64,000 nucleotides of DNA from Pedobacter segetis (GTDB lineage Bacteria; Bacteroidota; Bacteroidia; Sphingobacteriales; Sphingobacteriaceae). Positions 35,411-58,140 of the stretch are shown one piece after another; the first letter of the stretch is position 1, and each line of letters starts with the position of its first letter. Made by a program: the position numbers and the translations under genes. Where the stretch lies: contig NZ_JAEHFY010000018.1 in assembly GCF_016623585.1 (NCBI RefSeq), forward strand, positions 1-64,000, read 5' to 3'. The notes beneath the pieces were generated by a model. It did no database searches. It saw only the letters and a list, made by a program, of their open reading frames with translations, and had not been told where the DNA came from.

Positions 35411-35854
35411 ATGAATAAATCAGCGATCATACTTTTTGCACATTTGCCAGATTTTGAGGCAAGGGTCAAAAGTTTATCCTATTTATCGTCTAAAAGAGCC
35501 ACAAAAAGGATATCCGCCTTTTTAACGCAACACTTTTTTAAGCTTTCTAAGCAAACTACGGCAGATACCTTCTTAATTGACACTTACCACCAAAACGGAA
35601 CAACTTTTGGCCAAAGGATTGCCAATGCTTTTGAGGATATTTATGCAAAAGGCTATCAAAATGTTATTTGTATAGGTAACGATTGCCCCAATTTAACGTT
35701 GGATAATCTACAAAATGCGATAAGCGAAACCGAGAATGGCAAAGTAGTTTTAGGGCCAACACAAGATGGTGGTACTTATCTGATAGGCATCCCAAGATCG
35801 CATTTTGACAAATATGCTTTTGAGAACGTTAAATGGCAAACCAACAATACTTAT
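35411..35854 (+). repeat. Direct repeat with 45490-45933, 441/444 identical
   Basis: Identity starts exactly at the ATG and ends abruptly after the codons for NNTY. The three differences are GTC/GCC (Val/Ala), CTA/CTG (silent) and GAC/GAT (silent). Sequence before and after is unrelated. The 10-kb segment between the copies could be deleted or duplicated by homologous recombination. Confidence 0.97.
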
Positions 35855-36500: not shown

Positions 36501-36502
36501 TT

Positions 36503-37570: not shown

Positions 37571-37658
37571 TTGTTTTTAACCAAAGAGATAATTGAGAAA
37601 ACACACAAAGTCTAATGAAATAACTGTTTAGCTTTAATGTTCTCCGTTTAAACTCTTA

Positions 37659-38387: not shown

Positions 38388-38419
38388 TGCCTTCGGGATA
38401 AGGTACAACTTTCTCACGT

Positions 38420-38533
38420 CGTCATTTCGAGGTACGGGAAACGAAGTTCATCGAAGATAAATCTCATATTCAAAGTGTGTATTTGGTGTGCAATACCTAT
38501 TTATGAGATGTTTGATAATCGTTCAACGTGACG
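38420..38533. repeat. Imperfect palindromic element (MITE-like)
   Basis: Outer arms CGTCA (38420-38424) and TGACG (38529-38533); inner arms ATCTCATA (38461-38468) and TATGAGAT (38502-38509). The CGTCATTTCGAG edge and AACGTGACG edge recall dispersed palindromic elements of this group. No open frame inside. Confidence 0.6.
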
Positions 38534-38600
38534 AAAAGCGGAGAAAACGCCAAAAATCTCAAAACTAATTCATCAATTTTTTTAGCTAATTATTATCAGA

Positions 38601-41825: not shown

Positions 41826-41836
41826 GAGACAGAACG

Positions 41837-43273: not shown

Positions 43274-43275
43274 AA

Positions 43276-44637
43276 ATGGAAAACAACACCGTCACTTATC
43301 TGCAATGGGGGTTTATTTTGCTTTCGAGCATTTTAATATTTGCATTTGCGCCCGTTGCAAAAACCACCAGAGATTTTTTTTACGGCAGTAAAAACAATAA
43401 AGAACCCAATGCCATTTTGTTAACCAGTAGTTTGGTTATCAGTTGGATATTTGCAAAATCAATTACCAATGTGGCTAATTTAGGTTTGAGCTTTGGTTTG
43501 GTGGGTGTAGCGGCTTATGCCGCTTATTATTTTTCTTTTTTGGTGGCAGGTGTGGTAATTTGTAAAATGCGTTTAAAAGGCGGATTTAAAAGCATCCACC
43601 ATTTTATTGGTTCTAAATACGGAAAAGGGGCATTATACCTCTTTTCCGTTTTAATTGCCTTTAGGTTGTTTAACGAGGTATGGTCCAATACGATGGTAAT
43701 CGGCTCTTACTTTGGCGATGCCGGTTCTACATCTTATTTTGCGGCGATTATTGTTTTTACTTTGCTGACTTTGGCTTATGCATTAAAAGGCGGAATGAGT
43801 ACTTCCATTTTAACGGATGTGATACAGATGGCACTTTTTGGCGTTTTATTAACTACCATTTTGGCCTACATTCTACCTGAGATGAAAGGCGATTTAAAAC
43901 CAATCTACAACTCGGGCCAATGGACAATGGCAACCGGCGGAAACTTGATTTTGGTAGCTTTATTGCAATGTTTTAGCTATCCCTTTCACGATCCTGTTTT
44001 GACTGATAGAGGTTTTATTGCATCGCCAAAAACTACGCTCAAATCTTTTATTTGGGCAACCGTTATCGGGATTTTATGTATCGCATTTTTCGGTATTGTG
44101 GGTATTTTTGCGCAGATAAAAGGCATGACGGGGCAAGCAACCGTAGAAGTCGCCAAATATTTTGGCCCGGTAATGTTACTGATTATGAACTTTATTATGG
44201 TGACTTCGGCAGCATCAACCTTGGATTCTGCATTCTCTTCTTTCTCAAAGCTGTATAATATAGATATTTTCCATAACCGAGAATTAAAAATCAGTAAAGG
44301 ACGCATAGCGATGGTTATTCTAACTATTTTAGGCACCATTCCAATTTTCTTTAAACCCGAGATTTTATCGGCAACCACCATCAGCGGAACAATGGTAATT
44401 GGCTTAGCCCCTGTGTTCCTTTTCTGGAACAGCAAAATGCCGAAATTCTCTTTTTATGCTCCTGTAATTTTTGGTTTAATAATGGGTTTAATTACGGCAT
44501 TAGATTTAATTCCTGCTTTCTGGATATTTACAGAAGGTAAATACAACGATTTGCTCGGTGTAAACTTATGGGGAAGTTTGGTGTGTTTTATTTTATTCTT
44601 TCTTCCTTTGATAAATAAATCATGGCAAAAAAAGTAA
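43276..44637 (+). CDS. Sodium:solute symporter (SSS) family protein
   Basis: A 453-residue inner-membrane carrier with about 13 hydrophobic segments (for example GLVGVAAYAAYYFSFLVAGVV and GTMVIGLAPVFLFWNS). Family traits: the DFFYGSKN loop after the first segment, KGGMSTSILTDVIQMALFG, and the Na-site-like segment VTSAASTLDSAFSSFSKLYN. It probably moves into the cytosol what the SusC/SusD pair brings to the periplasm. The last 16 bases overlap the phosphoesterase gene, so the two are co-translated. Confidence 0.9.
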   Translation: MENNTVTYLQWGFILLSSILIFAFAPVAKTTRDFFYGSKNNKEPNAILLTSSLVISWIFAKSITNVANLGLSFGLVGVAAYAAYYFSFLVAGVVICKMRLKGGFKSIHHFIGSKYGKGALYLFSVLIAFRLFNEVWSNTMVIGSYFGDAGSTSYFAAIIVFTLLTLAYALKGGMSTSILTDVIQMALFGVLLTTILAYILPEMKGDLKPIYNSGQWTMATGGNLILVALLQCFSYPFHDPVLTDRGFIASPKTTLKSFIWATVIGILCIAFFGIVGIFAQIKGMTGQATVEVAKYFGPVMLLIMNFIMVTSAASTLDSAFSSFSKLYNIDIFHNRELKISKGRIAMVILTILGTIPIFFKPEILSATTISGTMVIGLAPVFLFWNSKMPKFSFYAPVIFGLIMGLITALDLIPAFWIFTEGKYNDLLGVNLWGSLVCFILFFLPLINKSWQKK

Positions 44638-45470
44638 AAGATATTGGTGCTTTAAAAGGTAAAATTTTAGTCTTTGGAGGGGTTTACTCTAATCTGCAAG
44701 CGCTAAAAGCAATAAAAAGTTTGGCTTCCTCTGAAAGAATTACGCCAGAAAACATCATTTGCACTGGCGATGTGGTGGCTTATTGTGCAGAACCAAAAGA
44801 ATGTGTTCAGCTGGTTAATGCGTGGGGAATCCACTGTATTGCAGGGAATGTTGAGCTCAATTTGGTAAACGATCTTAATGACTGTGGCTGTAATTTTAAT
44901 GAAGGTGGCAGATGCGATATTTTTTCTCGCCAATGGTACCCTTATTTAAAAAACGCATTAAGCAAAGTGGATATGGATTGGATGGCTACCCTACCCGAAT
45001 TTATTTCTTTTGCTTACGCTGATAAAAAAGTTGCGGTAGTGCATGGCTCCTACTTTAATACTTCGGAGTTTATTTTTAAATCCACGGACTGGCATAGCAA
45101 ACAAAAAAACTTTGAAGCTTTAAATACCGATGTGATTTTAGCTGGCCATTGTGGCTTACCTTTTTCTGATATTAATAACAATAAAATTTGGCTTAACGCC
45201 GGAGTAATCGGGATGCCAGCAAATGACGGAACACCAAGAGTTTGGTATGCCATATTAGAGGATACAAAAGGTTTCAATTTCGAGATAAAAGCTTTGGATT
45301 ACGATTACAACACAGCTTCCGATTTGATGGTTGATAAACCTTTGCCCCAAACTTACAGACAAACTTTAAGAAATGGCATTTGGGATAATTGTGAAATTTT
45401 ACCGCAACAGGAAGCATATTTGCAGGGAAACCAATTAAACTTTACCAAAATGAAAACCAAAACAAAATAA
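44622..45470 (+). CDS. Metallophosphoesterase (calcineurin-like)
   Basis: A 282-residue cytosolic protein of the calcineurin-like phosphoesterase fold. Motifs: LVFGGVYSNLQAL (usual D-x-H of motif I replaced by G-x-Y), ICTGDVVAYC (GD), IAGNVELNL (usual GNH/GNCD becomes GNVE), VVHGSY and VILAGHCGLPF (GHxH-like, becomes GHC). Several metal ligands therefore differ from the classic set, and activity may be altered. It overlaps the symporter gene by 16 bases and precedes DUF2064 copy 2 by 19 bases. It could dephosphorylate an arsenoribose phosphate or a nucleotide; this is a guess from context. Confidence 0.82.
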   Translation: MAKKVKDIGALKGKILVFGGVYSNLQALKAIKSLASSERITPENIICTGDVVAYCAEPKECVQLVNAWGIHCIAGNVELNLVNDLNDCGCNFNEGGRCDIFSRQWYPYLKNALSKVDMDWMATLPEFISFAYADKKVAVVHGSYFNTSEFIFKSTDWHSKQKNFEALNTDVILAGHCGLPFSDINNNKIWLNAGVIGMPANDGTPRVWYAILEDTKGFNFEIKALDYDYNTASDLMVDKPLPQTYRQTLRNGIWDNCEILPQQEAYLQGNQLNFTKMKTKTK

Positions 45471-45489: not shown

Positions 45490-45933
45490 ATGAATAAATC
45501 AGCGATCATACTTTTTGCACATTTGCCAGATTTTGAGGCAAGGGCCAAAAGTTTATCCTATTTATCGTCTAAAAGAGCCACAAAAAGGATATCCGCCTTT
45601 TTAACGCAACACTTTTTTAAGCTTTCTAAGCAAACTACGGCAGATACCTTCTTAATTGACACTTACCACCAAAACGGAACAACTTTTGGCCAAAGGATTG
45701 CCAATGCTTTTGAGGATATTTATGCAAAAGGCTATCAAAATGTTATTTGTATAGGTAACGATTGCCCCAATTTAACGTTGGATAATCTGCAAAATGCGAT
45801 AAGCGAAACCGAGAATGGCAAAGTAGTTTTAGGGCCAACACAAGATGGTGGTACTTATCTGATAGGCATCCCAAGATCGCATTTTGATAAATATGCTTTT
45901 GAGAACGTTAAATGGCAAACCAACAATACTTAT
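45490..45933 (+). repeat. Direct repeat with 35411-35854, 441/444 identical
   Basis: The second copy of the 444-base segment. Divergence begins at the codon after NNTY (CAA here, AAA in copy 1). Most easily explained by recent gene conversion or partial duplication. Confidence 0.97.
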
Positions 45934-46182
45934 CAAAATTTATTTTCCCTTTTTAGTTTATCTAAAGGTTCTGTTTACAATACAAAAGTTCTATTTGATA
46001 TTGATAACGGAAACGATTTTTCTTCTTATTTTAAAGAAAACATACTGGTAAAGGTTTTTATCAACATCGTTAATAACCTTAAACCAAAAAATACCCTACA
46101 TCTAAAACAACCCTTTTTAAGGCTAATCCTTAGCCAAACCCTTTTATTTAGAGGCCCACCAGCTAATACTATTTCTATTTAA
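45490..46182 (+). CDS. DUF2064 arsenosugar-type glycosyltransferase, copy 2
   Basis: A 230-residue paralogue with residues 1-148 identical to copy 1 except Ala19 for Val. It keeps CIGNDCPNLT and GPTQDGGTYLIGIP. The last 82 residues differ wholly from copy 1 (QNLFSLFSLSKGSVYNTKV and on) and end FRGPPANTISI, closer in style to copy 3. It lies between the phosphoesterase and a TonB-dependent receptor on the same strand. Copies 1 and 2 may act on the same donor with different acceptors, since the N-terminal nucleotide-binding part is shared and the rest is not. Confidence 0.87.
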   Translation: MNKSAIILFAHLPDFEARAKSLSYLSSKRATKRISAFLTQHFFKLSKQTTADTFLIDTYHQNGTTFGQRIANAFEDIYAKGYQNVICIGNDCPNLTLDNLQNAISETENGKVVLGPTQDGGTYLIGIPRSHFDKYAFENVKWQTNNTYQNLFSLFSLSKGSVYNTKVLFDIDNGNDFSSYFKENILVKVFINIVNNLKPKNTLHLKQPFLRLILSQTLLFRGPPANTISI

Positions 46183-46221: not shown

Positions 46222-49200
46222 ATGAAAAGAATTATACTTTCTTTTGTTGCTGTTTTTGCGACAATTTTTGCCTATGCGCAAACCACTCTAACTGTTAATG
46301 TAAAAAATGCGGAAGGAGAAGGACTTGCCAATATTGAAGTTACCATAACTTCAAAAAACCTTAATAAAAGCGCACCTACAAATGCCAGCGGTGCAGCTTT
46401 ATTCCAAAATTTACCATCTGGGAATTACGTAGCCAAGGTAAAATCATCTATTAACTATAATGCCAACAACATTAATTTTTATATACCAACAGGTAAACCA
46501 GAAAAATCTGTTGATTTGGTTTTAACAAGCAAAGATAGCTATCAGCTACAAGAGGTTGCCATTACAGAAAACAAAAACAAATCTGTAACCATAAACAAAA
46601 CCGATGCTGCCGTTGCGCAATATATCTCTAAATCACAAATACAAACTTTACCAATTGAAGGAAGGGATGTAACCAAGAGTTTGTATCGTTTGCCAAACAT
46701 AACTATCTCATCATTAGGATATAATGAAGCACCTTCAATTGCCATTAACGGTTTAAGCGGTATTTACACCAACTATTTAATTGATGGGATGGATAATAAT
46801 GAACGCTTTTTAGGAAACTCGAAATTTAATACTCCATTCGGTTTTACAGAAAGCGTTACGGTTTTGACCAATAATTACTCTGTAGAATATGGTAATACCA
46901 GCAATGGTATAGTAAATGTAGAAACCCGTTCCGGCAGTAATGATTTTACAGGGGAAGTGTTCTATTTAACACGCCCGGGTTCTATTGTTGATGCTAAATC
47001 TGCTTTCGCAAGTGTAGATCTATATGGCAACCCTGTAAAAGATGGATTCCAAAGACAACAATTGGGTGTTGGGGTTGGCGGGCCGATAGTAAAAGACAAA
47101 ACTTTCTTTTACTTTAATCTTGAGCAAACCAACGATATAAAAGACAATCTATTAAATGTACCACAATTAGGCGTTAATGAAGCTGTTAGGGGGAGGAATT
47201 ATTTTACCTATGCTTCTGGAAAGATAGACCAATATTGGAACAAAAACTTTCATAGCAGTTTAAGAGCAAACGTTGGTTCTTTTGATATTGATGCACAAGG
47301 TGGCGGTTTAACCGGTGGTAACAATTTTCCCTCTTCTGGATCAACCCAAAAAAACAGGACTTATTTAATTGCCTTGAAGAATGATTATAACATCAGCCCT
47401 AAATTAAAGGCCGAAACTAACGTTCAAACTTCATTTTTTAGATGGAACTACCGTGATAGGCCAAATATTGGTAAACCGGGTGTTTCTGTACAAGACCCAA
47501 GTGGTGTAACCATCGCTAACATTGGTTCTATTGATTATATTTTTGACGATGGCGAATACACCAACCAACTACAACAAAAATTTAGATATAAAGCGGGGAA
47601 ACATAATTTATTGGGCGGTGCAGAATTCACTACTTCAGATTTTTCTCTTTTAGGTGCGGGTAACTCTTATGGTTATTATACTGTTAGATTAAATGCACAG
47701 CAATTGGCAGATCTAAAGGCTAAAAACATTGGCGCAGCATTAGATATTAATGATATTCCATCTGATGTGCAAGTAATTCAATATAAAGTAGATCTAGATC
47801 AAAAGGTATTTGGCGTTCGCCAGAACGTTTTTAATATATATGCGGAAGACAACTTTAAGGCAACAGATAAATTAGATATTAATTTGGGTGTACGTTATGA
47901 TTACGATAATCTTTCAAAAGCTGGCGATACCAAAGGCGATAGAAACAATATAGGCCCAAGATTTAGTTTTAATTATAAGATTGATGATAAAAACGTTATT
48001 AGAGGTGGTGTAGGAAGATTTTATGATAAAATAAAATATTCTGTAACAAGCGATAATCTTCAATTTAGCGGAAATTCTCCAAACTTTAAAAAAGAATTAG
48101 CCGAGTTACAAAGATTGGGTATCTTAGATAAGAATGCCAATCTAGACAGAATAACCTACCCGGGAAATTTAAGGGCAATTTATGAGCAAGGTTCTACACC
48201 GGGATATTTACAAGGTAAATCATCAGCAGAATCTCAAGGAAACAGAGATTTTCAATCAAATTCTAATTTCAGGATTAAAAACCCCAATGGTTATCAAAAC
48301 CCATATTCTGATCAGTTTACCTTGGGTTATCAAAGAAAACTAGCAGATAATATTTTATTTGATGTTGATTTGGTAGCTTCAAACACAAATGATCTGTACA
48401 GGATCACAAACTTGAATTCTCCTCCACCGTTTGATCCAAAACAAGTTGGTTCTGTTAGAACAACGGCTAATGCCAATAGCTTAAGGCCGGTTCCCATCAA
48501 AACAGTAAACGGACAATTTGTTGCAACCGTTGGCGGGCAAGATTTAAGCGGAATTGCCAGAGATGTGTACATGACCGAAACCGCAGGCAAAGCCAGATAT
48601 GCTGCCGCAAACTTTTCTTTTATAAAAACAAAAGGCGAGGGAGAAAAATTTTCTTATCGTTTCTCTTATACCTTATCTAGCATTAAAGATGATACAGAAG
48701 GGATTAACGTAAGAGCGCAAGATGCAAATAATTGGGCTGCAGAATACGCTTATGGAGATAATGATCGCACCCATGTGATAAACGCTTTATTTACATATTA
48801 TCCAATTAAGAATTTAACGTTAACGCCCGCAATGCTTTTCCAAAGTGGCCAACCTATTACCAGGTATGCAATTGCCAGTCAATATGGTGGTGTTACAGAC
48901 TTGAATGGCAACGGAGAAAGCCAAGGTTTACCAGCCGACATCCAACCCGGCGAAACCAGGAATAATGATCGTTTACCTAGTGCAACCTCCTTTGATTTTT
49001 CTGCAAAGTACAGGCTAACCCTGAAAAACAAATCGGGAATTGAATTTTCGGCTGACATTTATAATTTGTTGAACAGCACTAATCTAACAGGTTTTGCATC
49101 TACAAGATCTGCAAGTAACCAGATCCAACCTGGCCCAAAAAGTTCTAATGTTCTAAATATAAGAGCCGCTGGCCCTCCTCGTCAGTTCCAGTTTGGGGTG

Positions 49201-49224
49201 CGTTATGTATTTGGAAATTTCTAA
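46222..49224 (+). CDS. TonB-dependent receptor with N-terminal carboxypeptidase-like domain
   Basis: A 1000-residue outer-membrane receptor, not of the SusC type. Signal MKRIILSFVAVFATIFAYAQ, a CarboxypepD-like beta-sandwich (TLTVNVKNAEGEGLANIEVT), then plug (INKTDAAVAQYISKSQIQTL, SIAINGLSGIYTNYLIDGMD, SVEYGNTSNGIVNVETRSG). The barrel ends GPPRQFQFGVRYVFGNF with terminal Phe. No SusD accompanies it. The next gene, a kinase, starts 10 bases later, so uptake and phosphorylation of the ligand may be coupled. Confidence 0.94.
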   Translation: MKRIILSFVAVFATIFAYAQTTLTVNVKNAEGEGLANIEVTITSKNLNKSAPTNASGAALFQNLPSGNYVAKVKSSINYNANNINFYIPTGKPEKSVDLVLTSKDSYQLQEVAITENKNKSVTINKTDAAVAQYISKSQIQTLPIEGRDVTKSLYRLPNITISSLGYNEAPSIAINGLSGIYTNYLIDGMDNNERFLGNSKFNTPFGFTESVTVLTNNYSVEYGNTSNGIVNVETRSGSNDFTGEVFYLTRPGSIVDAKSAFASVDLYGNPVKDGFQRQQLGVGVGGPIVKDKTFFYFNLEQTNDIKDNLLNVPQLGVNEAVRGRNYFTYASGKIDQYWNKNFHSSLRANVGSFDIDAQGGGLTGGNNFPSSGSTQKNRTYLIALKNDYNISPKLKAETNVQTSFFRWNYRDRPNIGKPGVSVQDPSGVTIANIGSIDYIFDDGEYTNQLQQKFRYKAGKHNLLGGAEFTTSDFSLLGAGNSYGYYTVRLNAQQLADLKAKNIGAALDINDIPSDVQVIQYKVDLDQKVFGVRQNVFNIYAEDNFKATDKLDINLGVRYDYDNLSKAGDTKGDRNNIGPRFSFNYKIDDKNVIRGGVGRFYDKIKYSVTSDNLQFSGNSPNFKKELAELQRLGILDKNANLDRITYPGNLRAIYEQGSTPGYLQGKSSAESQGNRDFQSNSNFRIKNPNGYQNPYSDQFTLGYQRKLADNILFDVDLVASNTNDLYRITNLNSPPPFDPKQVGSVRTTANANSLRPVPIKTVNGQFVATVGGQDLSGIARDVYMTETAGKARYAAANFSFIKTKGEGEKFSYRFSYTLSSIKDDTEGINVRAQDANNWAAEYAYGDNDRTHVINALFTYYPIKNLTLTPAMLFQSGQPITRYAIASQYGGVTDLNGNGESQGLPADIQPGETRNNDRLPSATSFDFSAKYRLTLKNKSGIEFSADIYNLLNSTNLTGFASTRSASNQIQPGPKSSNVLNIRAAGPPRQFQFGVRYVFGNF

Positions 49225-49233
49225 ACAAAAAAC

Positions 49234-50220
49234 ATGATTTTAGATCAAAATAAACTTTCCGAAATCAGTGAATATTTACAAGCTCATGGGGTAATTAAAT
49301 CCCATGAGTTTGTTTCAAAAGCAGAGAAACCTGGCGAGGGAAACATGAATTATACCTTAAGGTTATTTGTTGATGAGAAAACATTCATCATTAAACAAGC
49401 CAGGCCTTATGTAGAAAAATACCCTTCTATTGCTGCACCAGAAGAACGAATTTTGGTAGAAAGTGAGTTTTATAAAATCATCTCTAAAAATGATTTCTTG
49501 GCCCATCACACTCCAAAAATTTTGCATTCTGATGAGAAAAACCATATCCTTTTAATGGAAGATCTGGGCAACACCCAAGATTTTTCATCATTATATAAAA
49601 AAGGAAACGAGCTTATAGTAGATGATGTAAAAATGTGTGCGGTTTTTTTAAATGAACTTCACGGTGAGTTTAAAAAAGATACAGCTAATGATTTAATGGC
49701 CAACAAAAAATTAAGGAACTTAAATCATGAACATATTTTTATCTACCCTTTCTTAGAAGATAATGGTTTTGATTTAGATACGGTTACAGCCGGTTTACAA
49801 AATTTAGCTATGAATTACAAAACCAACTCGGTTTTAAAAGCCAAGGCAGAAAAATTAGGGGCCAATTACTTAGCTGATGGGGATACACTTTTACATGGCG
49901 ATTATTACCCGGGCAGTTGGTTAAATACCAAAGAAGGTTTAAAGGTAATTGATCCCGAATTTGCTTTTTATGGCAAAGCCGAGTTTGATTTGGGCGTTTT
50001 GAACGCTCATTTAATGATGGCACAACAACCAGAAAACGTTTTTGAAACGCTTAAAAAATTTTATAAAAAAGACGATGATTTTGAGGAAAGTCTTTTTAAA
50101 CAATTTACTGGGATAGAGATCATGCGAAGGATTATAGGCTTAGCACAATTGCCCTTAGATTTAAGCTTGGAAGAGAAAAAACAATTGTTGGAAAAAGCAA
50201 TGGTTTTAATTGGGGAGTAA
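49234..50220 (+). CDS. MtnK-like kinase (aminoglycoside-phosphotransferase fold)
   Basis: A 328-residue kinase. ATP lobe: GEGNMNYTLRLFV, FIIKQARPYVEKYP (Lys) and ILLMEDLGN hinge. The catalytic loop is TLLHGDYYPGSWL (about 219-231) and the metal motif is VIDPEFAFYGKAEFDLG (about 238-254). A D-x-E in place of DFG, followed by FAFYG, is typical of 5-methylthioribose kinase. MtnK phosphorylates C1 of 5-methylthioribose. In this setting a 5-deoxy-5-dimethylarsinoyl ribose would be a structural analogue. The protein is shorter than MtnK (about 400), so I call it MtnK-like and leave the substrate open. Confidence 0.8.
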   Translation: MILDQNKLSEISEYLQAHGVIKSHEFVSKAEKPGEGNMNYTLRLFVDEKTFIIKQARPYVEKYPSIAAPEERILVESEFYKIISKNDFLAHHTPKILHSDEKNHILLMEDLGNTQDFSSLYKKGNELIVDDVKMCAVFLNELHGEFKKDTANDLMANKKLRNLNHEHIFIYPFLEDNGFDLDTVTAGLQNLAMNYKTNSVLKAKAEKLGANYLADGDTLLHGDYYPGSWLNTKEGLKVIDPEFAFYGKAEFDLGVLNAHLMMAQQPENVFETLKKFYKKDDDFEESLFKQFTGIEIMRRIIGLAQLPLDLSLEEKKQLLEKAMVLIGE

Positions 50221-50225
50221 ATTTT

Positions 50226-50332
50226 GTGTTAGGGATTGAAACGGTATCCTTTTTTTGCCCTTATGCGAAAAGCATTGGCAAAAAAAGATATAGTGAAAAG
50301 CCCGACCCCGATTTTTTTTCGGGGAAACACCC
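50226..50332. repeat. REP-like intergenic palindromic element, copy D
   Basis: GTGTTAGGGATTGAAACGGT, CCTTTTTTTGCC around a GCGAAAAGC loop and GGCAAAAAAAG, GTGAAAAGCCC, then CCCCGATTTTTTTTCGGGG and AAACACCC. Same build and orientation as copy B. Confidence 0.8.
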
Positions 50333-50351
50333 AAATAAATAAAGAAAAATT

Positions 50352-51278
50352 ATGGAAAATAAACCTAAAAGAATTTGGTTCGATTGTGATATTATGATTG
50401 GTATCCCCTCGCCAAAACCACGTGAAGTTGATGATGGCATTACTTTGATGATGGCCCTACGTCAGAAAAACATAGAAATTGTTGGGATTAGCATTGTTAC
50501 AAATGTAGATTACGGTTATGAGGTTACCCAAAAAATGCTAAAATGGTACCATACGGGCGCACCTATCCCTGTGTATAAAGGTTCTGATCTGGCAAACGAT
50601 CTGGGAACCGAAAACGATGCCACCAGAGCTTTGGCAGATGCTTTGCGAAAAGAAAAGTTGTACATATTGGCTTTGGGACCAAATACAAATATTGCCACCG
50701 TGTTAAAAAACCACCCAGAATTGGCAAGCCAAGTAGAAGAGATTTCTTTCTGCATAGGCCGCCAACCAGATTATGAGTTTAGGCCGGGGTTGGGGCATCA
50801 TCCTGTTTTGGATTATAATTTTGAAAAGGATGTTGCGTCTATGCAAGTAATCTTAGATACGAATATTCCTTTGTTATTCTCTGGCTTTGAATGTAGCTGC
50901 TCCATTTTATTGGGCGACGTAGATGTTGATCGTTTGAAAGATAACGGGCATGAAGGCGATGAATGGGTTTACCAACAATTGGTGCCCTGGATCGCTAGGG
51001 CAAAAACCGCTTTTGGGGTTAATGGTTTTATTCCTTACGATTGTACGCCTTTAGGTTATTTTACCCATCCAGAGTATTTTAAGTATTATGAGGATATTCC
51101 TGTAGAAATCAATATCAAGAAAAATGATTCTAACTTTTTTGGGATGGATACCAGAACAGAAAAGGAGTTTTTAGAGGTTTCTTATGATTTTAAATCGAGC
51201 AGGAAAGTAAAATATGCCTACAAAACTTTACCCGGTTTTGAGGAGAAGATCATTGAAAGCTTATTGAGGAGGGATTAA
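50352..51278 (+). CDS. Nucleoside hydrolase-like protein (IUNH superfamily)
   Basis: A 308-residue protein of the inosine-uridine nucleoside hydrolase fold, which splits the N-glycosidic bond of nucleosides. The calcium-binding aspartates are present, but DxD (WFDCDIM) and VDD (EVDDGITLMMAL) are 13 residues apart instead of 3: an insertion of about 10 residues with IGIPSPKPR. Later blocks are LALGPNTNIATVL and HHPVLDYNFEKDVASM. Where many members have His-Asp near the C-terminus, this has PYDCTPLGYF. The altered pocket argues for an unusual nucleoside. It follows the MtnK-like kinase gene (131 bases, with a REP-like element between). Confidence 0.85.
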   Translation: MENKPKRIWFDCDIMIGIPSPKPREVDDGITLMMALRQKNIEIVGISIVTNVDYGYEVTQKMLKWYHTGAPIPVYKGSDLANDLGTENDATRALADALRKEKLYILALGPNTNIATVLKNHPELASQVEEISFCIGRQPDYEFRPGLGHHPVLDYNFEKDVASMQVILDTNIPLLFSGFECSCSILLGDVDVDRLKDNGHEGDEWVYQQLVPWIARAKTAFGVNGFIPYDCTPLGYFTHPEYFKYYEDIPVEINIKKNDSNFFGMDTRTEKEFLEVSYDFKSSRKVKYAYKTLPGFEEKIIESLLRRD

Positions 51279-51314
51279 GTATTAAGTTTTAAATTTTAAG
51301 TATTAAGTTTTAAG
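51273..51314. repeat. Heptamer-period tract, six units
   Basis: GATTAAG, TATTAAG, TTTTAAA, TTTTAAG, TATTAAG, TTTTAAG. The first unit contains the stop codon of the nucleoside hydrolase gene (51276-51278). Confidence 0.8.
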
Positions 51315-51363
51315 CTATATGTGCTTGCAAACAACATAAGAGTTAAAGCCTAAAATTTATTAC

Positions 51364-52065
51364 TTAAAGACCGTTTAAAGCACAATTATAAGGCAAATAT
51401 TCAATTTCTGATGAAGGGTTTATTTTGGTTTTTGTGTAATTGTTCATCCAAGCTAACAAAGTAAAGTTATTATTGAACTGTTCAGAAAAATCGTCCCAAT
51501 ACCATTGAAAAAGACTAGAAACACCAATTGGGCTTTGATCTAGAGAGTTTTTATCCGGATCGTTAATAAAATCACTGGTTTGATCCTCCAGTTGTTCTTC
51601 TAATTTATCGGCAATAAAGGCTTCGTTTCTAAATTTAGGGCAAGAAAAAGAAGCACAAACCAAACAAAAATGGATGCGTGGTTCATTAAAATCTTTTCTC
51701 AAGATCTCATGTTCTAGCTTATCCAAGGTAAACTCCTCCTCTCCTATTTTAAAGAAAGATATTTTAAATGGAGATTGTTGATGTGCAGCACCAATATCTT
51801 TGATATTACCTAAACCGTAATTATTTGTGATTAATTTTACGGTAAACGCGTTATAAGCATTGATCCAATAGGCTAGTTTATGTTTTACGGTCCACTCGTT
51901 TTGTGGTGGATTTTTGGTCAATAAATCTAGGTAAATATCTAGCTCGGGTTCTTCGTTTTTAAATCCTTTATAATTCACAAAGCCTTTATTATCAACAAAT
52001 TTACCAACTAAAACATCCCATTGTAGATGTTGATGAAACGTATCTGAATGAAACTGATTTGCCAT
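51364..52065 (-). CDS. DUF547 domain protein
   Basis: A 233-residue protein with ATG at 52065; a TTG at 52074 is the only upstream alternative. It has the DUF547 hallmarks KHKLAYWINAYNAFTVKLI, FTLDKLEHEILRKDFNEPR and HFCLVCASFSCPKFRNEAF, in which His and two Cys could form a catalytic or metal site (papain-like fold has been suggested for the family). No signal peptide, so cytosolic. It is the only minus-strand gene in the 35.4-56.8 kb set and sits divergently from the ABC importer. Function unknown. Confidence 0.85.
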   Translation of the reverse strand: MANQFHSDTFHQHLQWDVLVGKFVDNKGFVNYKGFKNEEPELDIYLDLLTKNPPQNEWTVKHKLAYWINAYNAFTVKLITNNYGLGNIKDIGAAHQQSPFKISFFKIGEEEFTLDKLEHEILRKDFNEPRIHFCLVCASFSCPKFRNEAFIADKLEEQLEDQTSDFINDPDKNSLDQSPIGVSSLFQWYWDDFSEQFNNNFTLLAWMNNYTKTKINPSSEIEYLPYNCALNGL

Positions 52066-52121
52066 ATTTTTCAAAGCTATTTAAAATAAACGAGTTTGAT
52101 TATCTAAATTAAATTATACTG

Positions 52122-53366
52122 ATGTTAAAATTAAAAACGATTCTTTCTGGTATTGTGATCCTGAGTGTTTTTGCTTGCAATAACGATAGAAAGACTGCAA
52201 ATGGTTCTAAAGACGAGAACAATGATCCCATGATGAAACAATCTTGGGAGCAAATAGAACAGAAGGCCAAAGGCTCTACGGTTACCTGGATGAAATGGAC
52301 GGGCGACAAAAAAGCAAATAAATATATTGATGATATCTTGATACCTAGGATCAAAAACAGATTTGGGATTACCTTAAAGATCATCCCGGGGCAAGGCCCT
52401 TCAATTGTGAGCAGCATTATGAGCGAGCGGGAAGCAAATGTAGAAAAAGGACAAACAGACATGGTTTGGATAAACGGAGAAACTTTTTTCCAAATACAAC
52501 AAATAAAAGGTTTGTATGGGCCTTTTACCTATAAATTACCAAGCTCGCAATACATCAATTACGAAGATCCCATTATCAAATATGATTTTCAGCAAGACAT
52601 CAAAGGCTATGAAGCACCTTGGGGAAAGGCTTCTTTTATCGCTTTAACTGATGGCGCAAAAGTTAAAAACCCGCCTGTAAGTATGCAAGATTTTGAAACT
52701 TATTGGAAAGCTAATCCGGGGAAATTCACTTTGTCTTTAGATTTTACAGGTTATACCTTATTAAAAACCTGGCTGATTGAATTAGCAGGCGGAATTGATA
52801 ACCTTAAAGGAGATTTTGACCAAAAAAAATACGATAAATACAGCGCACAACTTTGGGATTTCATCAACAGAAACAAAAAATATTTTTGGAAAAAAGGAGA
52901 AACTTTTCCAGATAATGCAGTAACAATTGCCCAGCTTTATGCCACAGGCGAGGTAAATTTTGGTTTTTCTTTCGGCTTTACCGCTGTTGATAAAGGTATA
53001 AAAGAGGGATTGTTCCCTAAAACCACCATCGGTTATGTTTTAAAACCCGGGAGCATCCACAATACCAGTTATTTGGCTATCCCTTTTAATGCAAGTAATA
53101 AAGAAGGTGCTTTGGTGGTCATTAATTATTTGTTATCACCAGAAGCGCAAATAGAAAAAAGCGATATTAATAATGGCGGAGGAACCCCAGTATTTGATGT
53201 TTCTAAATTAAGCCCAGAGCTAAAGGCCAAATATGATGCGCTTGAAAAACCAAAATACGGCATGACGGAAGAAGAAGTTTTGGCAAAAGCCATTGTAGAA
53301 CCACATTCTATGTATATGATAAAAGTTGCGGAAGATTTTAGAAAGAAAGTAATTGATAAGAAATAA
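52122..53366 (+). CDS. ABC transporter substrate-binding lipoprotein (YnjB-like)
   Basis: A 414-residue solute-binding protein with lipobox LSVFAC-NNDR. It is of the YnjB type, with WMKWTGDKKANKYIDDILIP, IIPGQGPSIVSSIMSEREAN and the ligand-region blocks DMVWINGETFFQIQQ and FGFSFGFTAVDKGIKEG. The C-terminal block INYLLSPEAQIEKSDINNGG is typical. It heads an operon with two permeases, an ATPase and a radical SAM gene. YnjBCD-type importers have no well-established substrate, which fits a specialised cargo. Confidence 0.9.
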   Translation: MLKLKTILSGIVILSVFACNNDRKTANGSKDENNDPMMKQSWEQIEQKAKGSTVTWMKWTGDKKANKYIDDILIPRIKNRFGITLKIIPGQGPSIVSSIMSEREANVEKGQTDMVWINGETFFQIQQIKGLYGPFTYKLPSSQYINYEDPIIKYDFQQDIKGYEAPWGKASFIALTDGAKVKNPPVSMQDFETYWKANPGKFTLSLDFTGYTLLKTWLIELAGGIDNLKGDFDQKKYDKYSAQLWDFINRNKKYFWKKGETFPDNAVTIAQLYATGEVNFGFSFGFTAVDKGIKEGLFPKTTIGYVLKPGSIHNTSYLAIPFNASNKEGALVVINYLLSPEAQIEKSDINNGGGTPVFDVSKLSPELKAKYDALEKPKYGMTEEEVLAKAIVEPHSMYMIKVAEDFRKKVIDKK

Positions 53367-53394
53367 GTTGAAAGTTATAGGTATTAGGTTGTAA
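53367..53394. repeat. Weak heptamer-period tract, four units
   Basis: GTTGAAA, GTTATAG, GTATTAG, GTTGTAA in register, starting right after the stop codon of the binding-protein gene. More degenerate than the others. Confidence 0.45.
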
Positions 53395-53476
53395 ATTTTG
53401 ATTAGAATTTTAAAGTGGAAAGGTTAAACTTAGATGGTATTTCAAAGCTTGGGTCTAAGTTCTCGTATTATAAAAA

Positions 53477-54331
53477 ATGTTTAAAAAACCAATAAATATC
53501 ATTTCATTTTTATTGCTCTTTGTATTTGCAATCCTTCCCTTAGTTCTGGGTTTTGGCTTTGCGGTTGCTTATAGCTTTGGTTTAATTGGTGTTTTAAATA
53601 AAGGTTTTACTTTAGAAAACTGGTTGGCGTTGTTTGAGAATAACGATGTAGTAATTTCTTTTATTTATAGCGCTTGGTTGGCTATTGCTTCCCTAACCAT
53701 AAGCGTGGTAGTTTCTATGGCAATTGCTATAAATTTCAATAAAAAATTTAGTAAAGGCATATATTCATATTTGGTTTATATGCCTTTGGCTTTTCCCTCT
53801 ATAGTTGCAGCATTCTTTTTTGCCCAATTTTTGGGTAACGCGGGTATATTATCGCGTATTTGCTATCAACTAGGCATTATCGATAAAATACAATCTTTCC
53901 CCAATTTAATAAACGACCAGTATAGTATTGGTATAATCATCGCTCAATTTTTCTTGAGCTTACCGTTTTTTACTTTACTTTACACAGGTTTGTACCAAAC
54001 AGAAAGAATTGATGATTATACAAAATTGGCCAACTCTCTAGGAGCAAAAAACCGACAATCTATTTTCAGGATTTCTATTCCAATTTTATTTAAAAAGAGC
54101 TTTCCAAATATTGTACTGTATTTTATTTTTAAAATTGGTGCTTATGAAGTTCCTCTTTTATTAGGTCGTTCATCGCCAGAAACGGTCTCTGTTTTAGCGG
54201 TAAGGAAGCTTCAAAAATTTAACCTATATGATATTCCACAAGGTTATGCCATTGCGGTAATTTATACCATCATCATCTTAAGCCTATTAATGCTTGTACT
54301 TAAAACCAATAAAAATGAGTACGACATTTAA
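53477..54331 (+). CDS. ABC transporter permease (YnjC-like, first)
   Basis: A 284-residue inner-membrane permease with six hydrophobic segments (IISFLLLFVFAILPLVLGFG, LAIASLTISVVVSMAIAI and others). The cytosolic coupling loop DDYTKLANSLGAKNRQSIFRI matches the EAA motif pattern (EAA---G---------I-LP), with SIPILFKKSFPNI following. It pairs with the second permease, whose gene overlaps its end by 17 bases. YnjC of enterobacteria is a single double-length protein; here the function is divided between two genes. Confidence 0.88.
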   Translation: MFKKPINIISFLLLFVFAILPLVLGFGFAVAYSFGLIGVLNKGFTLENWLALFENNDVVISFIYSAWLAIASLTISVVVSMAIAINFNKKFSKGIYSYLVYMPLAFPSIVAAFFFAQFLGNAGILSRICYQLGIIDKIQSFPNLINDQYSIGIIIAQFFLSLPFFTLLYTGLYQTERIDDYTKLANSLGAKNRQSIFRISIPILFKKSFPNIVLYFIFKIGAYEVPLLLGRSSPETVSVLAVRKLQKFNLYDIPQGYAIAVIYTIIILSLLMLVLKTNKNEYDI

Positions 54332-55094
54332 GAAAAGGAATATATTTTTATGGTTGCTTGCATTGGCTTTTATAACGCCAATTATTACCTTATTTTTTCT
54401 TTCATTTAGCAAAAATTGGCAGTTTCCAGCCATTTTACCAAAACAATTCACTTTAGAAAACTGGCGATATTTGTTCTTTTCTGGCGGCAATATCGCTCCC
54501 AGCTTTGTGATTTCTCTGGTAATTGCTTTATCGGTTGCAACCTTTTCTACACTATTTGGTTTTATTGCCAGTAAATATATCGCCTACCACAAATTTAGGT
54601 CTAAATTATTGATGCTCACATACTTTCCCTTTGCACTATCACCAGTAATATTTGCCCTTTGCCTTAAATTCTTTTTCATAAAAATGAGTTTAACTGGTAA
54701 TGTAGAAGGAATTATATTGGCGCAGCTCATTATTGCTTTCCCATATAGTGTTATTTTTTTTACAGGTTTTTGGAGTCAAAAAATTAAACAATACGAAGAT
54801 TTAGTAGCAACTTTAGGAGGTACAACATCTTACGCTTTTCGTAAAATTGTGATGCCGATAGCAAAAAGTTTAATTTTGGTTTGCTTCTTCCAATGCTTTT
54901 TAATCTCTTGGTTCGAGTTTGGTTTAACCAGCATTATTGGTTACGGCAAAGTAGAAACGCTAACCATTAAAGTTTATCAATTCATTACCGAAGCAAATAT
55001 TTTTTATGCTGCTTTAAGTTGTTGCCTGCTCATTTTACCACCGGTAATTTTGCTATGGTTCAACAAAAAATTCATCATCCAACAAGCTAAATAA
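54315..55094 (+). CDS. ABC transporter permease (second)
   Basis: A 259-residue permease using ATG at 54315 (MSTTFKKRN), inside the end of the first permease gene. It has six hydrophobic segments, for example IFLWLLALAFITPIITLFFL and ILAQLIIAFPYSVIFFTGFW, and a coupling loop YEDLVATLGGTTSYAFRKIV with MPIAKSLILV. The ATPase gene starts at its last base (overlap TAATG), so the components are made together. Confidence 0.88.
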   Translation: MSTTFKKRNIFLWLLALAFITPIITLFFLSFSKNWQFPAILPKQFTLENWRYLFFSGGNIAPSFVISLVIALSVATFSTLFGFIASKYIAYHKFRSKLLMLTYFPFALSPVIFALCLKFFFIKMSLTGNVEGIILAQLIIAFPYSVIFFTGFWSQKIKQYEDLVATLGGTTSYAFRKIVMPIAKSLILVCFFQCFLISWFEFGLTSIIGYGKVETLTIKVYQFITEANIFYAALSCCLLILPPVILLWFNKKFIIQQAK

Positions 55095-55810
55095 TGTTTT
55101 TACAAGTTAATCATATCCAAAAAAAATATAAAGATAAACAGGTGATCCAAGATGTTTCCTTTGGTTTAGAGGCACATCAAACTTTAAGTATCCTAGGTAA
55201 AAGTGGTTGTGGGAAATCTACCTTGTTAAAAATTATTGCAGGGATTGAAGAGCAAGATAATGGGCATGTTCTCTTGAATGGGAAGAATATCGGCAATATA
55301 AAATCTAATGAAAGAAATATTGTTTACCTTTTTCAGGAACCGCTATTGTTCCCCAATCTTAATGTTTTCGAAAATATTGCTTTTGGTTTAAGGATAAGAA
55401 AGTTGGCTTCCGCCGATATTGAACAAAAAGTAGAAGAAATGTTGGATAGCTTAGAGCTAAAAGAGCACAGTAAAAAAATGCCCCATCAAATCTCGGGAGG
55501 CCAAAAACAGCGTGTTGCTTTTGGAAGGGCTTTGATCATTAACCCGCCATTAATTTTATTGGATGAACCTTTTAGCAGTTTAGATGTAGAAACGAGGGCA
55601 ACCATGCAACAATTATATAAAACCATCGCCAAAAAATTTAAGATAACAGCACTGTTTGTTACCCACGATCTAAAAGAAGCATTATTAATGGGAAACAGAA
55701 TATCTTACATGGATAATGGATTATTAGAGATTTTCGAGAGCAAGAAAGCTTTTATAGATGCTGATAAAACAGGTGTTAAATCAGAAATTAACTTTTGGAA
55801 TAATTTATAA
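55094..55810 (+). CDS. ABC transporter ATP-binding protein (YnjD-like)
   Basis: A 238-residue ATPase with Walker A GKSGCGKST (about 35-43), Q-loop FQEPLLFPNL, signature ISGGQKQRVAFGRAL, Walker B LILLDEPFSSLD and the H-loop VTHD. It powers import through the two permeases. Four bases separate it from the following radical SAM gene, which implies co-expression. Confidence 0.94.
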   Translation: MFLQVNHIQKKYKDKQVIQDVSFGLEAHQTLSILGKSGCGKSTLLKIIAGIEEQDNGHVLLNGKNIGNIKSNERNIVYLFQEPLLFPNLNVFENIAFGLRIRKLASADIEQKVEEMLDSLELKEHSKKMPHQISGGQKQRVAFGRALIINPPLILLDEPFSSLDVETRATMQQLYKTIAKKFKITALFVTHDLKEALLMGNRISYMDNGLLEIFESKKAFIDADKTGVKSEINFWNNL

Positions 55811-55814
55811 TACT

Positions 55815-56822
55815 ATGAGGAACGATTATAACGATTACGGAACTATTTATTGGGTTTTTACCCAATTGTGCAATGATGAATGCGACCATTGTTATAATGA
55901 TTCTGGCCCAAAAGGAGAAAGAATGACTGATGAGGAGTGTTTACAGATCATTTCTAATTTGCCCGAGAGATTGGGAAGGATAATTTTAAGCGGCGGTGAA
56001 CCTATCGCCGATAAAAAACAACTGTATCTGATCTTAGATACATTAACCGCTAAATACGGCAAAGATTTCAATATCTCTTTGCAAACCAATGGCGATTTGT
56101 TAAAACCAAAGATATTGGACGAGCTGCTAGAAAAAGGCGTAAAAAGTTTTAGCATTGCCAGTTTAGATCGTTTCCACAAACATGCTGGTGCAAAATTAGC
56201 CCCATTAAAAGAACTTTTTGATAGTCGGGGTTTGGTGGATATTATGCCTTATATTACCGTAGGCGTTTATGAAGAGGGCAAGCGCCAAAAAATTGATCCA
56301 AGCTGGAAAACCTATTCTTATTTTGGGGCAAACGAAGAAATGTGGCTAGGTGGCAATTGGGCAAGAGGAAGAGCTTATGAAAAAGACCTTTGGATGCAAG
56401 ACCCGCTTCATAATTTCTGTAAGATACAATCTGGGGCAAAAAACTTTTTAGGTGGTCATACCGATGTGATAGAAGAATTGAGCATCCAACTTTGGGCAAT
56501 AAACCCCTGCTGCCCCGGCACCAAAAAAGCCATGGGCGATGCCCGGAAAGAAAAAGTAATCGATGTATTATTGAAGGTAAAAGAATCGCCGATATTCCAA
56601 GCCTTAAACAATGGCGAACCCTATAAAATGGGCGAAAGCATCGGTGTAACACAAAAATATGCCTTAGAAAGAGGAAAAGCCACCCAAAACATTTGTTTAT
56701 GGTGCGATGAATTTTTTGAACGCCATTATGATATCGATAATTTGAGGGCCAAAACCAAAGACGAAGTAATTGGAGAATTAGATAGTTTTATCAAACTACC
56801 AGTGATCAGCAACCATCAATAA
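55815..56822 (+). CDS. Radical SAM protein, second in the gene set
   Basis: A 335-residue radical SAM protein; ATG at 55815 (MRNDYNDYGTIYWVFTQ) is chosen over 55758, which would overlap the ATPase gene. The [4Fe-4S] motif is QLCNDECDHCYNDSGP (C-x3-C-x2-C, about 18-33), then RLGRIILSGGEPIADKK and FNISLQTNGD. Additional cysteines in HNFCKI, NPCCPGTKKA and NICLWCDEFFE may hold a second cluster, as in SPASM/Twitch proteins. I do not recognise a named family. As the last gene of the ABC importer operon, it may process the imported compound or use a precursor shared with ArsS. Confidence 0.87.
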   Translation: MRNDYNDYGTIYWVFTQLCNDECDHCYNDSGPKGERMTDEECLQIISNLPERLGRIILSGGEPIADKKQLYLILDTLTAKYGKDFNISLQTNGDLLKPKILDELLEKGVKSFSIASLDRFHKHAGAKLAPLKELFDSRGLVDIMPYITVGVYEEGKRQKIDPSWKTYSYFGANEEMWLGGNWARGRAYEKDLWMQDPLHNFCKIQSGAKNFLGGHTDVIEELSIQLWAINPCCPGTKKAMGDARKEKVIDVLLKVKESPIFQALNNGEPYKMGESIGVTQKYALERGKATQNICLWCDEFFERHYDIDNLRAKTKDEVIGELDSFIKLPVISNHQ

Positions 56823-57024
56823 TGATCTTTGGTTTAAAAATCACGATAAAAATTCAATAAATTATTTTTATCTACAGTTTAAAGGGCATTACGATCTGTT
56901 TTCATTTTTTAATGAGATGCAACTATTATTAAGCTAAGACAATTTTTTCTTAAAGTTTAACCTTTAATTAATAATTAGATAAAATTTCTATTTTTGATGA
57001 ATTGGCTTACTTAATAAACCCCAA

Positions 57025-58140
57025 ATGATATCACTCGAAAAAATCTTTAAAAAAGCTTTTGCAACCGTTGGTGTTACTGTTAACGGAGATAAACCTTGGG
57101 ACATTCAGGTACGCAATCCCAAGCTGTATAACAGAATTATAGCAGGAGGTTCTATTGGTTTTGGAGAAGCTTATATGGATGGTTGGTGGGATTGCGAAGC
57201 CGTTGACGAATTCATGCACCGGGTATTATATCATCGCTTAGATAAAAAATTACCTAGGGATATTTTTACGGCATTTTATTTTTTAAACGCAAAATTCAAA
57301 AATAGACAAACCTTAGGCAGGGCAAAAGAAGTTGCTTATAAGCATTACGATATTGGTAACGAGCTTTTTGAGAAAATGCTGGACAAGAACATGATGTATT
57401 CTTGTGGCTATTGGGAAAAAGCAACCAATTTGGAAGAAGCACAAGAAGCAAAACTTGATCTAATTTGCCGTAAGCTTAAACTCGAAAAAGGAATGACGCT
57501 TTTAGAAATAGGTTGTGGATGGGGTACTTTTGCCAAATATGTTACTCAAAAGTATGGCGTTTCAGTTGTGGGCATCACCATATCCGATCAGCAAGCTATT
57601 TTGGCCCGTAAGATCAATGAAGGTTTGCCAGTTGAAATTAGGGTTCAAGATTACCGTGATGTAGAAGGAAAATTTGACAGAGTAGTATCCATCGCAATGT
57701 TAGAGGCTGTTGGATACCGTAATTTTAGGACATATATGGAAGTGGCCGATAAAAACCTAACAGATAATGGCATATTTTTTATCCATACCATTGGAGGCAA
57801 CTATGATGCTAAAACAACAGATCCATGGATAGATAAATATATTTTCCCAAATGGGATGTTGCCTTCCGCAAGTCAGCTATCAAAAGCATGGCAAGGTCTT
57901 TTTGTTTTGGAGGATTGGCATAACTTTGGCACTTATTATGATCCCACATTAATGGCTTGGTTAAAAAACTTTGAAGAAAGCTGGGACAGCATTAAACATA
58001 ATTATGATGAAAGATTTTACCGTATGTGGAGATATTTCCTTTGTGTTAGTGCAGCTTCATTTCGTTCAAGAAAAAACCACCTTTGGCATATAGTTTTAAC
58101 AAAACCAGTACGTTTAGGGATGTACAAATCTGTTAGGTAA
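57025..58140 (+). CDS. cfa: Cyclopropane-fatty-acyl-phospholipid synthase
   Basis: A 371-residue SAM-dependent enzyme that adds a methylene across double bonds of membrane phospholipid acyl chains. N-terminal lipid-binding region with GSIGFGEAYMDGWWDCEAVD; then AYKHYDIGNELFEKMLD and MMYSCGYW. The SAM loop is LLEIGCGWGTFAKYVTQKYG, and GITISDQQ, SIAMLEAVGYRNF and IDKYIFPNGMLPS are typical. The C-terminal LEDWHNFGTYYDPTLMAW and MWRYFLCVSAASFRSRKN match the E. coli type. Single gene; it starts 200 bases after the second radical SAM gene and need not belong with it. Confidence 0.95.
   Translation: MISLEKIFKKAFATVGVTVNGDKPWDIQVRNPKLYNRIIAGGSIGFGEAYMDGWWDCEAVDEFMHRVLYHRLDKKLPRDIFTAFYFLNAKFKNRQTLGRAKEVAYKHYDIGNELFEKMLDKNMMYSCGYWEKATNLEEAQEAKLDLICRKLKLEKGMTLLEIGCGWGTFAKYVTQKYGVSVVGITISDQQAILARKINEGLPVEIRVQDYRDVEGKFDRVVSIAMLEAVGYRNFRTYMEVADKNLTDNGIFFIHTIGGNYDAKTTDPWIDKYIFPNGMLPSASQLSKAWQGLFVLEDWHNFGTYYDPTLMAWLKNFEESWDSIKHNYDERFYRMWRYFLCVSAASFRSRKNHLWHIVLTKPVRLGMYKSVR

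Follow-up and report, generated by a model that had tools for sequence, protein, structure and literature searches.

The window analysed here is a stretch of 64,000 nucleotides from Pedobacter segetis (contig NZ_JAEHFY010000018.1; genome of 3.84 Mb), and the system in question is a set of five genes at positions 52122-56822, in which an ATP-binding cassette (ABC) importer is followed by a radical S-adenosylmethionine (SAM) enzyme of an unnamed family, here called rSAM2. These genes, all on the forward strand, encode a periplasmic binding protein of the YnjB subfamily (52122-53366; SBP_bac_8; 352.5 bits to the NF008633/PRK11622 model, against a cut-off of 203), permease 1 (53477-54331; BPD_transp_1, 41.6 bits), permease 2 (54315-55094; BPD_transp_1, 24.0 bits, just below the cut-off of 26.4, with ModB/PotC-like models), the ATPase (55094-55810; ABC_tran, 126.3 bits) and rSAM2 (55815-56822; Radical_SAM, 57.5 bits against 29.5). 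The binding protein and permease 1 genes are 110 bases apart, the two permease genes overlap by 17 bases and those of permease 2 and the ATPase by 1 base, and a gap of 4 bases separates the ATPase from rSAM2. An alternative ATG of rSAM2 is present upstream at 55758; relatives begin near 55815. Open reading frames (ORFs) and family models confirm the tight order of these genes given in an earlier note on this DNA, and the description of the importer as YnjBCD-like is borne out by the binding protein, which scores above the cut-off of NF008633 and has the permease and ATPase genes directly downstream. In Escherichia coli, YnjBCD is annotated as a putative transporter only. A literature search found its substrate reported nowhere, and no report that combines ynjB, an ABC transporter and radical SAM. 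The structural neighbours of the binding-protein model (predicted local distance difference test, pLDDT, 91.4) bind polyamine, iron, sugar phosphate, thiamin and dinucleotide, and give no verdict on the ligand.

Between positions 45490 and 52074, the core is preceded by genes for a DUF2064 protein, a TonB-dependent receptor, a kinase, a nucleoside hydrolase and a DUF547 protein, the first four on the forward strand and the last on the reverse strand. The DUF2064 protein (45490-46182; "GT3") is a divergent member of the TIGR04282 group (PF09837, 76 bits against a cut-off of 25.8; TIGR04282, 95.5 bits, below 134), and the outer-membrane receptor (46222-49224) has an Oar-like barrel (PF25183, 184 bits, with Plug and CarboxypepD_reg domains). 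The kinase (49234-50220) is methylthioribose-kinase-like (TIGR01767, 134.3 bits, below 275). Both of its solved matches at E of at most 0.01 have the methylthioribose kinase fold, the first being methylthioribose kinase 2olc (E 3e-22), and alignment to 2olc and 2pyw shows that HGDxxxGS and VIDPEFxFYG are retained. The nucleoside hydrolase (50352-51278; PF01156, 91.9 bits against 34.2) belongs to an unusual subgroup with a long loop before the DVDDG motif; the aligned protein retains DxD...DVDDG/EVDDG, the aspartate cluster of which is presumably catalytic. The DUF547 protein (51364-52074; PF04784, 98.7 bits) is an uncertain member of the cassette. The window therefore holds hydrolase, kinase and rSAM2 together.

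The conservation of this arrangement was followed in a set of loci around relatives of the window rSAM2 in genome contigs, of which 100 were found and the best 80 retained. They come mostly from Bacteroidota, but also from Acidobacteriota, Planctomycetota, one gammaproteobacterial bin and others, and their gene content was scored by tblastn. The binding protein was found in 57 of the 80 loci, the permeases in 59 and 60, and the ATPase in 64; the accessory genes comprise the TonB receptor (48) and DUF2064 (48), located upstream, together with DUF547 (10), the kinase (10), the hydrolase (9) and arsS (1). All five core genes are on one strand in 56 loci and are collinear in every one of these. 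The distance from ATPase to rSAM2 is at most 200 bases in 47 of the 56, with a 4-base overlap as the most frequent spacing, about 1.9-2.0 kb in eight loci with hydrolase and kinase genes in between, and 618 bases in one. The genes that flank the cassette in the window rarely recur in the 80 loci (cyclopropane fatty acid (CFA) synthase in 1; ArsR, SSS symporter and AhpD in 0). A profile search of 395 Bacteroidota genomes (rSAM2 at E 1e-50; YnjB by NF008633; arsS) gave rSAM2 in 9 genomes, the YnjB binding protein in 21 and both in 7 (P 1.4e-8). The P values of genome co-occurrence in this sample ignore kinship and, since the genomes are related, are too small. Within the window's own family, rSAM2 is present in 4 of 201 genomes, all four in the window's genus. 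In two genomes, a distant relative (33% identity, same motifs) is followed by a YnjB scoring 536 bits with the model and by a long permease gene, which ties rSAM2 to the YnjBCD of the E. coli type too. Because of the collinearity, the binding protein in 7 of 9 rSAM2 genomes compared with 21 of 395 overall, and this relative, rSAM2 goes with the importer; the neighbourhood conservation analysis thus supports the earlier suggestion that the enzyme works with the imported compound. The TonB receptor, the DUF2064 protein, the YnjB-type binding protein, the two permeases, the ATPase and rSAM2 form one unit, as their conservation shows. No rSAM2 was found on plasmids (tblastn, 1e-15) and no E. coli-type YnjB in phages (1e-20).

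From the perspective of sequence and fold, rSAM2 has no close named relative: its best named NCBIfam match is NirJ2 (43.9 bits), and all matches are far below cut-offs. An alignment of sequences from 47 of the 80 loci (L068, with an in-frame stop, was excluded) shares the motifs CNDxCxHC, WxRGRA, FC-SG, PCCPxT and CLWCDEFF. The cysteines of the radical SAM motif CxxxCxxC (C19, C23 and C26) are invariant, as are C202, C232 and C233, and C294 and C297 are at least 90% conserved. Judging by these positions, C202, C232, C233, C294 and C297 would suit one auxiliary cluster and one free cysteine, taking as the pattern for such a cluster what we presume to be the four cysteines of BtrN. The structural model (pLDDT 88.5) matches EpeE (Z 18.3 over 261 residues), BtrN (Z 16.1 over 217 residues; root-mean-square deviation 3.7), viperins (Z about 15) and SpeY (Z 12.1), in neighbour lists from which absence proves nothing. 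The closest of these folds is a peptide epimerase, and the distant NCBIfam matches include peptide maturases, as would be expected if rSAM2 modified a peptide handled by the receptor and importer. Such a peptide maturation is the least probable of the explanations considered: no precursor peptide family recurs among ORFs called at a length of 70 residues or more, the range that the search covered, and the importer and the base-cleaving partners described below do not fit. The ArsS model TIGR04167 is not among the best 25 of the 38 models listed for rSAM2, and ArsS and rSAM2 align over a common core only (101 of 357 columns, hhalign).

The nature of the step catalysed at this place in the cassette is approached from the importer genomes that lack rSAM2, all 14 of which were inspected in the 395-genome sample. 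Twelve of them carry a base-cleaving gene at the importer, either phosphorylase-like (8) or a nucleoside hydrolase (4), and this gene directly follows the ATPase in 6 of the 8 and 4 of the 4 cases, respectively; a methylthioribose-kinase-like kinase is present in 9 of the 14. Of the 80 rSAM2 loci, 9 contain the hydrolase and none the cassette-type phosphorylase; L061 has a canonical phosphorylase at its far side, which was excluded as lacking GHKYS, distant and on the other strand. Within the sample, the difference (12 of 14 against 1 of the 5 rSAM2-positive loci inspected) has a Fisher P of 0.017; against all 80 loci P is about 1e-7, a value computed with 10 instead of 9 loci, one gene having been excluded later. 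The base-cleaving step at the importer is therefore replaceable and occupies the same place as rSAM2. Furthermore, an alignment of 36 of the 57 binding proteins distinguishes pocket types. SNND is found in nearly all loci with rSAM2 only and in 7 of 7 phosphorylase loci in the alignment, and YGF/FGF.EG in hydrolase-kinase-SusC/D loci with or without rSAM2; the window and three Pedobacter relatives represent a third type. The pocket common to rSAM2-only and phosphorylase loci suggests that rSAM2 and the phosphorylase serve the same type of cargo. A nucleoside hydrolase also lies beside YnjB relatives in Peptoclostridium and Paracoccus.

The resemblance of the phosphorylase to methylthioadenosine phosphorylase, its best NCBIfam model (about 105-107 bits in the two proteins tested, below cut-off), and of the kinase to methylthioribose kinase would be accounted for by the salvage of methylthioadenosine or 5'-deoxyadenosine, as in methionine salvage. 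This was examined with 40 hand-picked cassette handles, in which one genome figures twice (G526 and G236, identical coordinates), and which also served for the tests of QueC, QueA and transporters below. MtnA, the next enzyme of the route, is missing from every one of the 14 tested genomes of the hydrolase type, including the window's own; of the phosphorylase type, 3 of 6 tested genomes have it, as do 9 of the 40 handles overall. Its absence from the hydrolase-type genomes means that the ordinary methionine salvage route does not follow. In addition, all eight phosphorylases have GHKYS where the aligned methylthioadenosine phosphorylase has TDYD, a stretch that we take to be an adenine contact, and this route has no role for rSAM2. 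Methionine salvage, a very improbable explanation, was rejected on the lack of MtnA in hydrolase-type genomes.

The reading tentatively favoured here is that the cassette serves scavenging, through the uptake and processing of a riboside, and that rSAM2 is an alternative or an addition to the base-cleaving enzymes; the cargo would be a riboside, on the sugar of which rSAM2 would act. According to the proposed mechanism, the TonB receptor and the ABC importer would bring in a scarce ribose-containing compound, either a nucleoside or another riboside, which could be taken apart inside the cell by interchangeable routes. The base might be removed by a nucleoside hydrolase or by an enzyme resembling methylthioadenosine phosphorylase, its base pocket altered, before the methylthioribose-kinase-like kinase acts. 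Alternatively, the breakdown would be the task of rSAM2. This enzyme, apparently of the same build as the epimerases and dehydrogenases among radical SAM enzymes that bear an additional small iron-sulphur domain, might abstract hydrogen from the sugar part and thereby epimerise or oxidise it, and could itself help base release. The product might then be a substrate of the DUF2064 protein, which has nucleotidyl and glycosyl transferases as relatives. A bolder version, in our view rather unlikely, is that the radical SAM family replaces nucleosidases in nutrient salvage: in many Bacteroidota, the sugar of a riboside carried by YnjBCD would be attacked by a Twitch-type radical SAM enzyme, a role that in relatives falls to a hydrolase or to a phosphorylase whose base pocket is altered, with a methylthioribose-type kinase in addition. 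An arsenosugar-type head group made by ArsS-bearing relatives is even conceivable as the cargo. If rSAM2 does replace a nucleosidase, sugars or nucleosides would be salvaged by a radical route. The conserved outer-membrane receptor, the replaceable base-cleaving set and the unnamed radical SAM family narrow the cargo of YnjBCD, also for E. coli.

Several observations weigh against riboside scavenging. Neither binding protein nor ATPase was found in 12 of the 68 rSAM2 loci with enough upstream DNA, and the trio of DUF2064, TonB receptor and rSAM2 stands alone, without the importer, in L009, L066 and L070. Within reach of rSAM2, 71 of the 80 loci show no nucleoside hydrolase and 70 no kinase, counts that refer to the loci only, and two loci with the importer and without rSAM2 (L165, a contig of 7.8 kb, and L168) show neither hydrolase nor phosphorylase. 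Phosphorylase and kinase would be redundant if both gave ribose-1-phosphate. Viperins are among the closest folds of rSAM2, and there is no sugar-specific signal. Finally, a CDP-alcohol phosphatidyltransferase gene lies beside the E. coli-type YnjBCD in 9 of 13 plasmid regions, viewed out of 43 numbered plasmid matches and chosen to spread over genera (one of the 13 is without annotation). Other partners in these regions are TVP38 with a FAD oxidoreductase (annotated in 5), DUF547 (2) and a nucleoside hydrolase (2).

The phosphatidyltransferase, with its partners in these regions, is the chief argument against reading the cargo simply as a nucleoside, and suggests a lipid head group instead: YnjBCD could import a polyol or sugar phosphate for a phospholipid head group, and the rSAM2 of Bacteroidota could remodel this head group as a cyclitol or sugar epimerase or dehydrogenase. 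The E. coli ynjBCD genes likewise have YnjF beside them, the nearest named models of which are archaetidylinositol- and phosphatidylinositol-phosphate synthases (below cut-off), and the TVP38/DedA proteins of the five plasmid regions also have counterparts in E. coli. BtrN oxidises a cyclitol-type substrate, as the name of 4m7t states, and the sugar-phosphate binder AfuA is among the folds that resemble the binding protein. However, such a transferase is absent from all 80 rSAM2 loci and from 20 further importer or rSAM2 loci (tblastn), as well as from the ten window proteins from 46222 to 58140 (Pfam scan), and the hydrolase, the phosphorylase and the methylthioribose-type kinase are left unexplained, so that head-group uptake is judged unlikely. 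No report joining three of CDP-alcohol phosphatidyltransferase, TVP38, ABC transporter and DUF547 was found in the literature search.

Queuosine salvage, in which the hydrolase would be QueK-like and rSAM2 a QueL-like queuine lyase, was suggested by the route of Clostridioides difficile, in which QueK and QueL take part in queuine salvage and whose importer, nucleoside hydrolase and radical enzyme match the set found here (PMC11130926, PMC11570991). QueC is absent in 31 of the 40 cassette handles, whereas QueA is present in 39. However, QueC is also absent in 181 of the 395 genomes overall (present in 214); it occurs in 7 of 21 genomes with the binding protein against 207 of 374 others (P 0.07) and in 5 of 9 rSAM2 genomes. 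A known precursor transporter is present in 28 of the 31 QueC-less handles, and in 30 of 40 overall. Riboswitches offer no clue (window 34000-58500 by E-value; 22 loci at the gathering threshold), with no preQ1 element among them, and the kinase would be unexplained. Queuosine salvage, which is highly improbable, was rejected because the lack of QueC is lineage-wide and the known transporter is present.

A further connection, the one that the earlier note had drawn, is to arsS (36503-37570; TIGR04167, 428.6 bits), to which the importer operon was said to be adjacent. This description is loose, as about 14.5 kb and some ten genes separate arsS from the operon downstream of it. Among the 80 loci, arsS is within reach of rSAM2 in the single case counted above. 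At the genome level, it was detected in 13 of 50 rSAM2 genomes (12 above cut-off), the search covering 50 of the 80. It is present in 156 genomes of the 395-genome sample. One of these is among the 21 YnjB genomes, the other 155 being among the 374 without YnjB (P 4e-4); likewise, a single one is among the 9 rSAM2 genomes and 155 are among the remaining 386 (P 0.09). Conversely, the surroundings of arsS (40 stretches, each 19.5 kb long at most, 12 from rSAM2 genomes; arsS recognised in 39) contain no binding protein, and only one of them has rSAM2, namely that from the planctomycete genome already known as L084. The proposed link of rSAM2 and importer to arsS is thus without support, and the partnership was rejected, as locus, genome and neighbourhood counts show no positive link. 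The earlier note had named two findings as speaking against its idea. The first, an importer-rSAM2 pair that is widespread without arsS, was observed; the second, another clear pathway, is seen in outline only, in base-cleaving enzymes and a methylthioribose-kinase-like kinase that are suggestive of a riboside. The nearness of arsS to the window cassette looks like a coincidence of one genome.

The surroundings of arsS itself recur elsewhere. The set of AhpD, ArsS, SusC, SusD, symporter and phosphoesterase at window positions 36168-45470 is found again in L210 at 54-61% identity, with SusC, SusD, symporter and phosphoesterase in that arsS neighbourhood 54-59% identical to window 38601-45470. 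The recurrence of the SusC-to-phosphoesterase block with arsS indicates that it belongs with arsS; 36168-45470 has the look of a separate module linked to arsS, and two distinct modules seem to have been joined in the window. In the genus g108, arsS is present in G329, G396, G471, G494 and G529, and the importer in other genomes (G517, G591 and G605).

Such a distribution could also be that of makers and scavengers, which leads to the possibility that the cassette takes up an arsenosugar-type riboside made by other bacteria with ArsS. The avoidance of importer and arsS (1 of 21 against 155 of 374, and again in g108) would be in keeping with this, as would a kinase for a 5-substituted ribose and the partners shared by importer/rSAM2 and arsS clusters, namely TIGR04282/04283-type proteins, DUF547, and TVP38 with the FAD oxidoreductase. 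On the other hand, the avoidance may reflect descent or habitat, there is no positive link to arsS, and 7 of the 13 arsS-positive rSAM2 genomes also carry the binding protein. None of the arsenic genes is a fixed member of the cassette, and the DUF2064 proteins of the window fall below the TIGR04282 cut-off (87.1, 83.9 and 95.5 bits for the three copies, against 134), the copy of this genome above the cut-off being on another contig. Altogether, an arsenosugar-related function is improbable, and since TIGR04282-type proteins occur in clusters without arsS, the arsenosugar name is to be used with care.

Apart from these questions, a number of other elements were recorded. In the window, a Flavo-1 RNA (RF01705, 61.8 bits, gathering score 42) lies at 50224-50311 on the forward strand, between the kinase and nucleoside hydrolase genes. 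The DUF2064 genes at 35411-36082 and 45490-46182 are alike over their first 444 bases (3 mismatches) and divergent after, and are probably, from this pattern, the product of a recent duplication or gene conversion. Beside rSAM2 in other loci are paired, mutually related and undescribed proteins of about 215 residues (L014:10932-12216, L065:10930-12203, L074 and others). By tblastn, one member occurs in 11 of the 80 loci and the other in 12. No Pfam family matches the pair above cut-off, or at all under E 0.02, and no PDB relative scores better than E 0.2. An undescribed protein of 125 residues with an invariant CxLC motif (L021:10957-11334, L041:16546-16947 and others; 14 of 80 loci by tblastn) directly follows rSAM2 in 7 of 13 called cases and likewise has no Pfam family above cut-off (nothing below E 0.02). 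At L067:9980-16364, rSAM2 is followed by TauE and metallo-hydrolase genes resembling window 31835-34912, and at L072:6853-8412, in a Chlorobiales bin, a second radical SAM gene, related to TrsS/tetraether synthase, lies beside rSAM2, TIGR04283 and DUF547.

The cassette can be compared with five known systems. The ydjXYZ-ynjABCD/ynjEF stretch of E. coli K-12, in which ynjBCD is surrounded by ydjX, ydjY, ydjZ, ynjA, ynjE and ynjF, shares with the window a YnjB-subfamily binding protein adjoining permease and ATPase. It has one long YnjC permease gene where the window has two permease genes, together with DedA-type YdjX/YdjZ, AhpD-like YnjA and YnjF, and, unlike the window, no rSAM2, TonB receptor, hydrolase or kinase. 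The ArsS clusters (TIGR04167) resemble the cassette in having a radical SAM gene, TIGR04282/04283-type proteins and sometimes DUF547, but lack YnjB in all 40 neighbourhoods, and ArsS shares only its core with rSAM2; in arsenosugar biosynthesis, the adenosylation of arsenic is performed by a radical SAM enzyme, according to PMC12159101. Methylthioribose kinase and methylthioadenosine phosphorylase are the closest named and solved relatives of the cassette kinase and of the phosphorylase that replaces rSAM2, from which these two differ in falling below the curated cut-offs and, in the window genome, in the absence of MtnA. Queuine salvage in C. difficile (QueK, QueL and QueT), likened here by its published description (PMC11130926, PMC11570991), also combines an importer, a nucleoside hydrolase and a radical enzyme, although its importer is of the energy-coupling factor (ECF) type and that of the cassette consists of ABC and TonB components; most of the cassette genomes, moreover, already have their need for queuosine met by other means. 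Finally, the radical SAM dehydrogenases BtrN and SpeY and the epimerase EpeE, at 16-20% identity, resemble rSAM2 in their fold and apparently also in where the extra cysteines stand behind the core.

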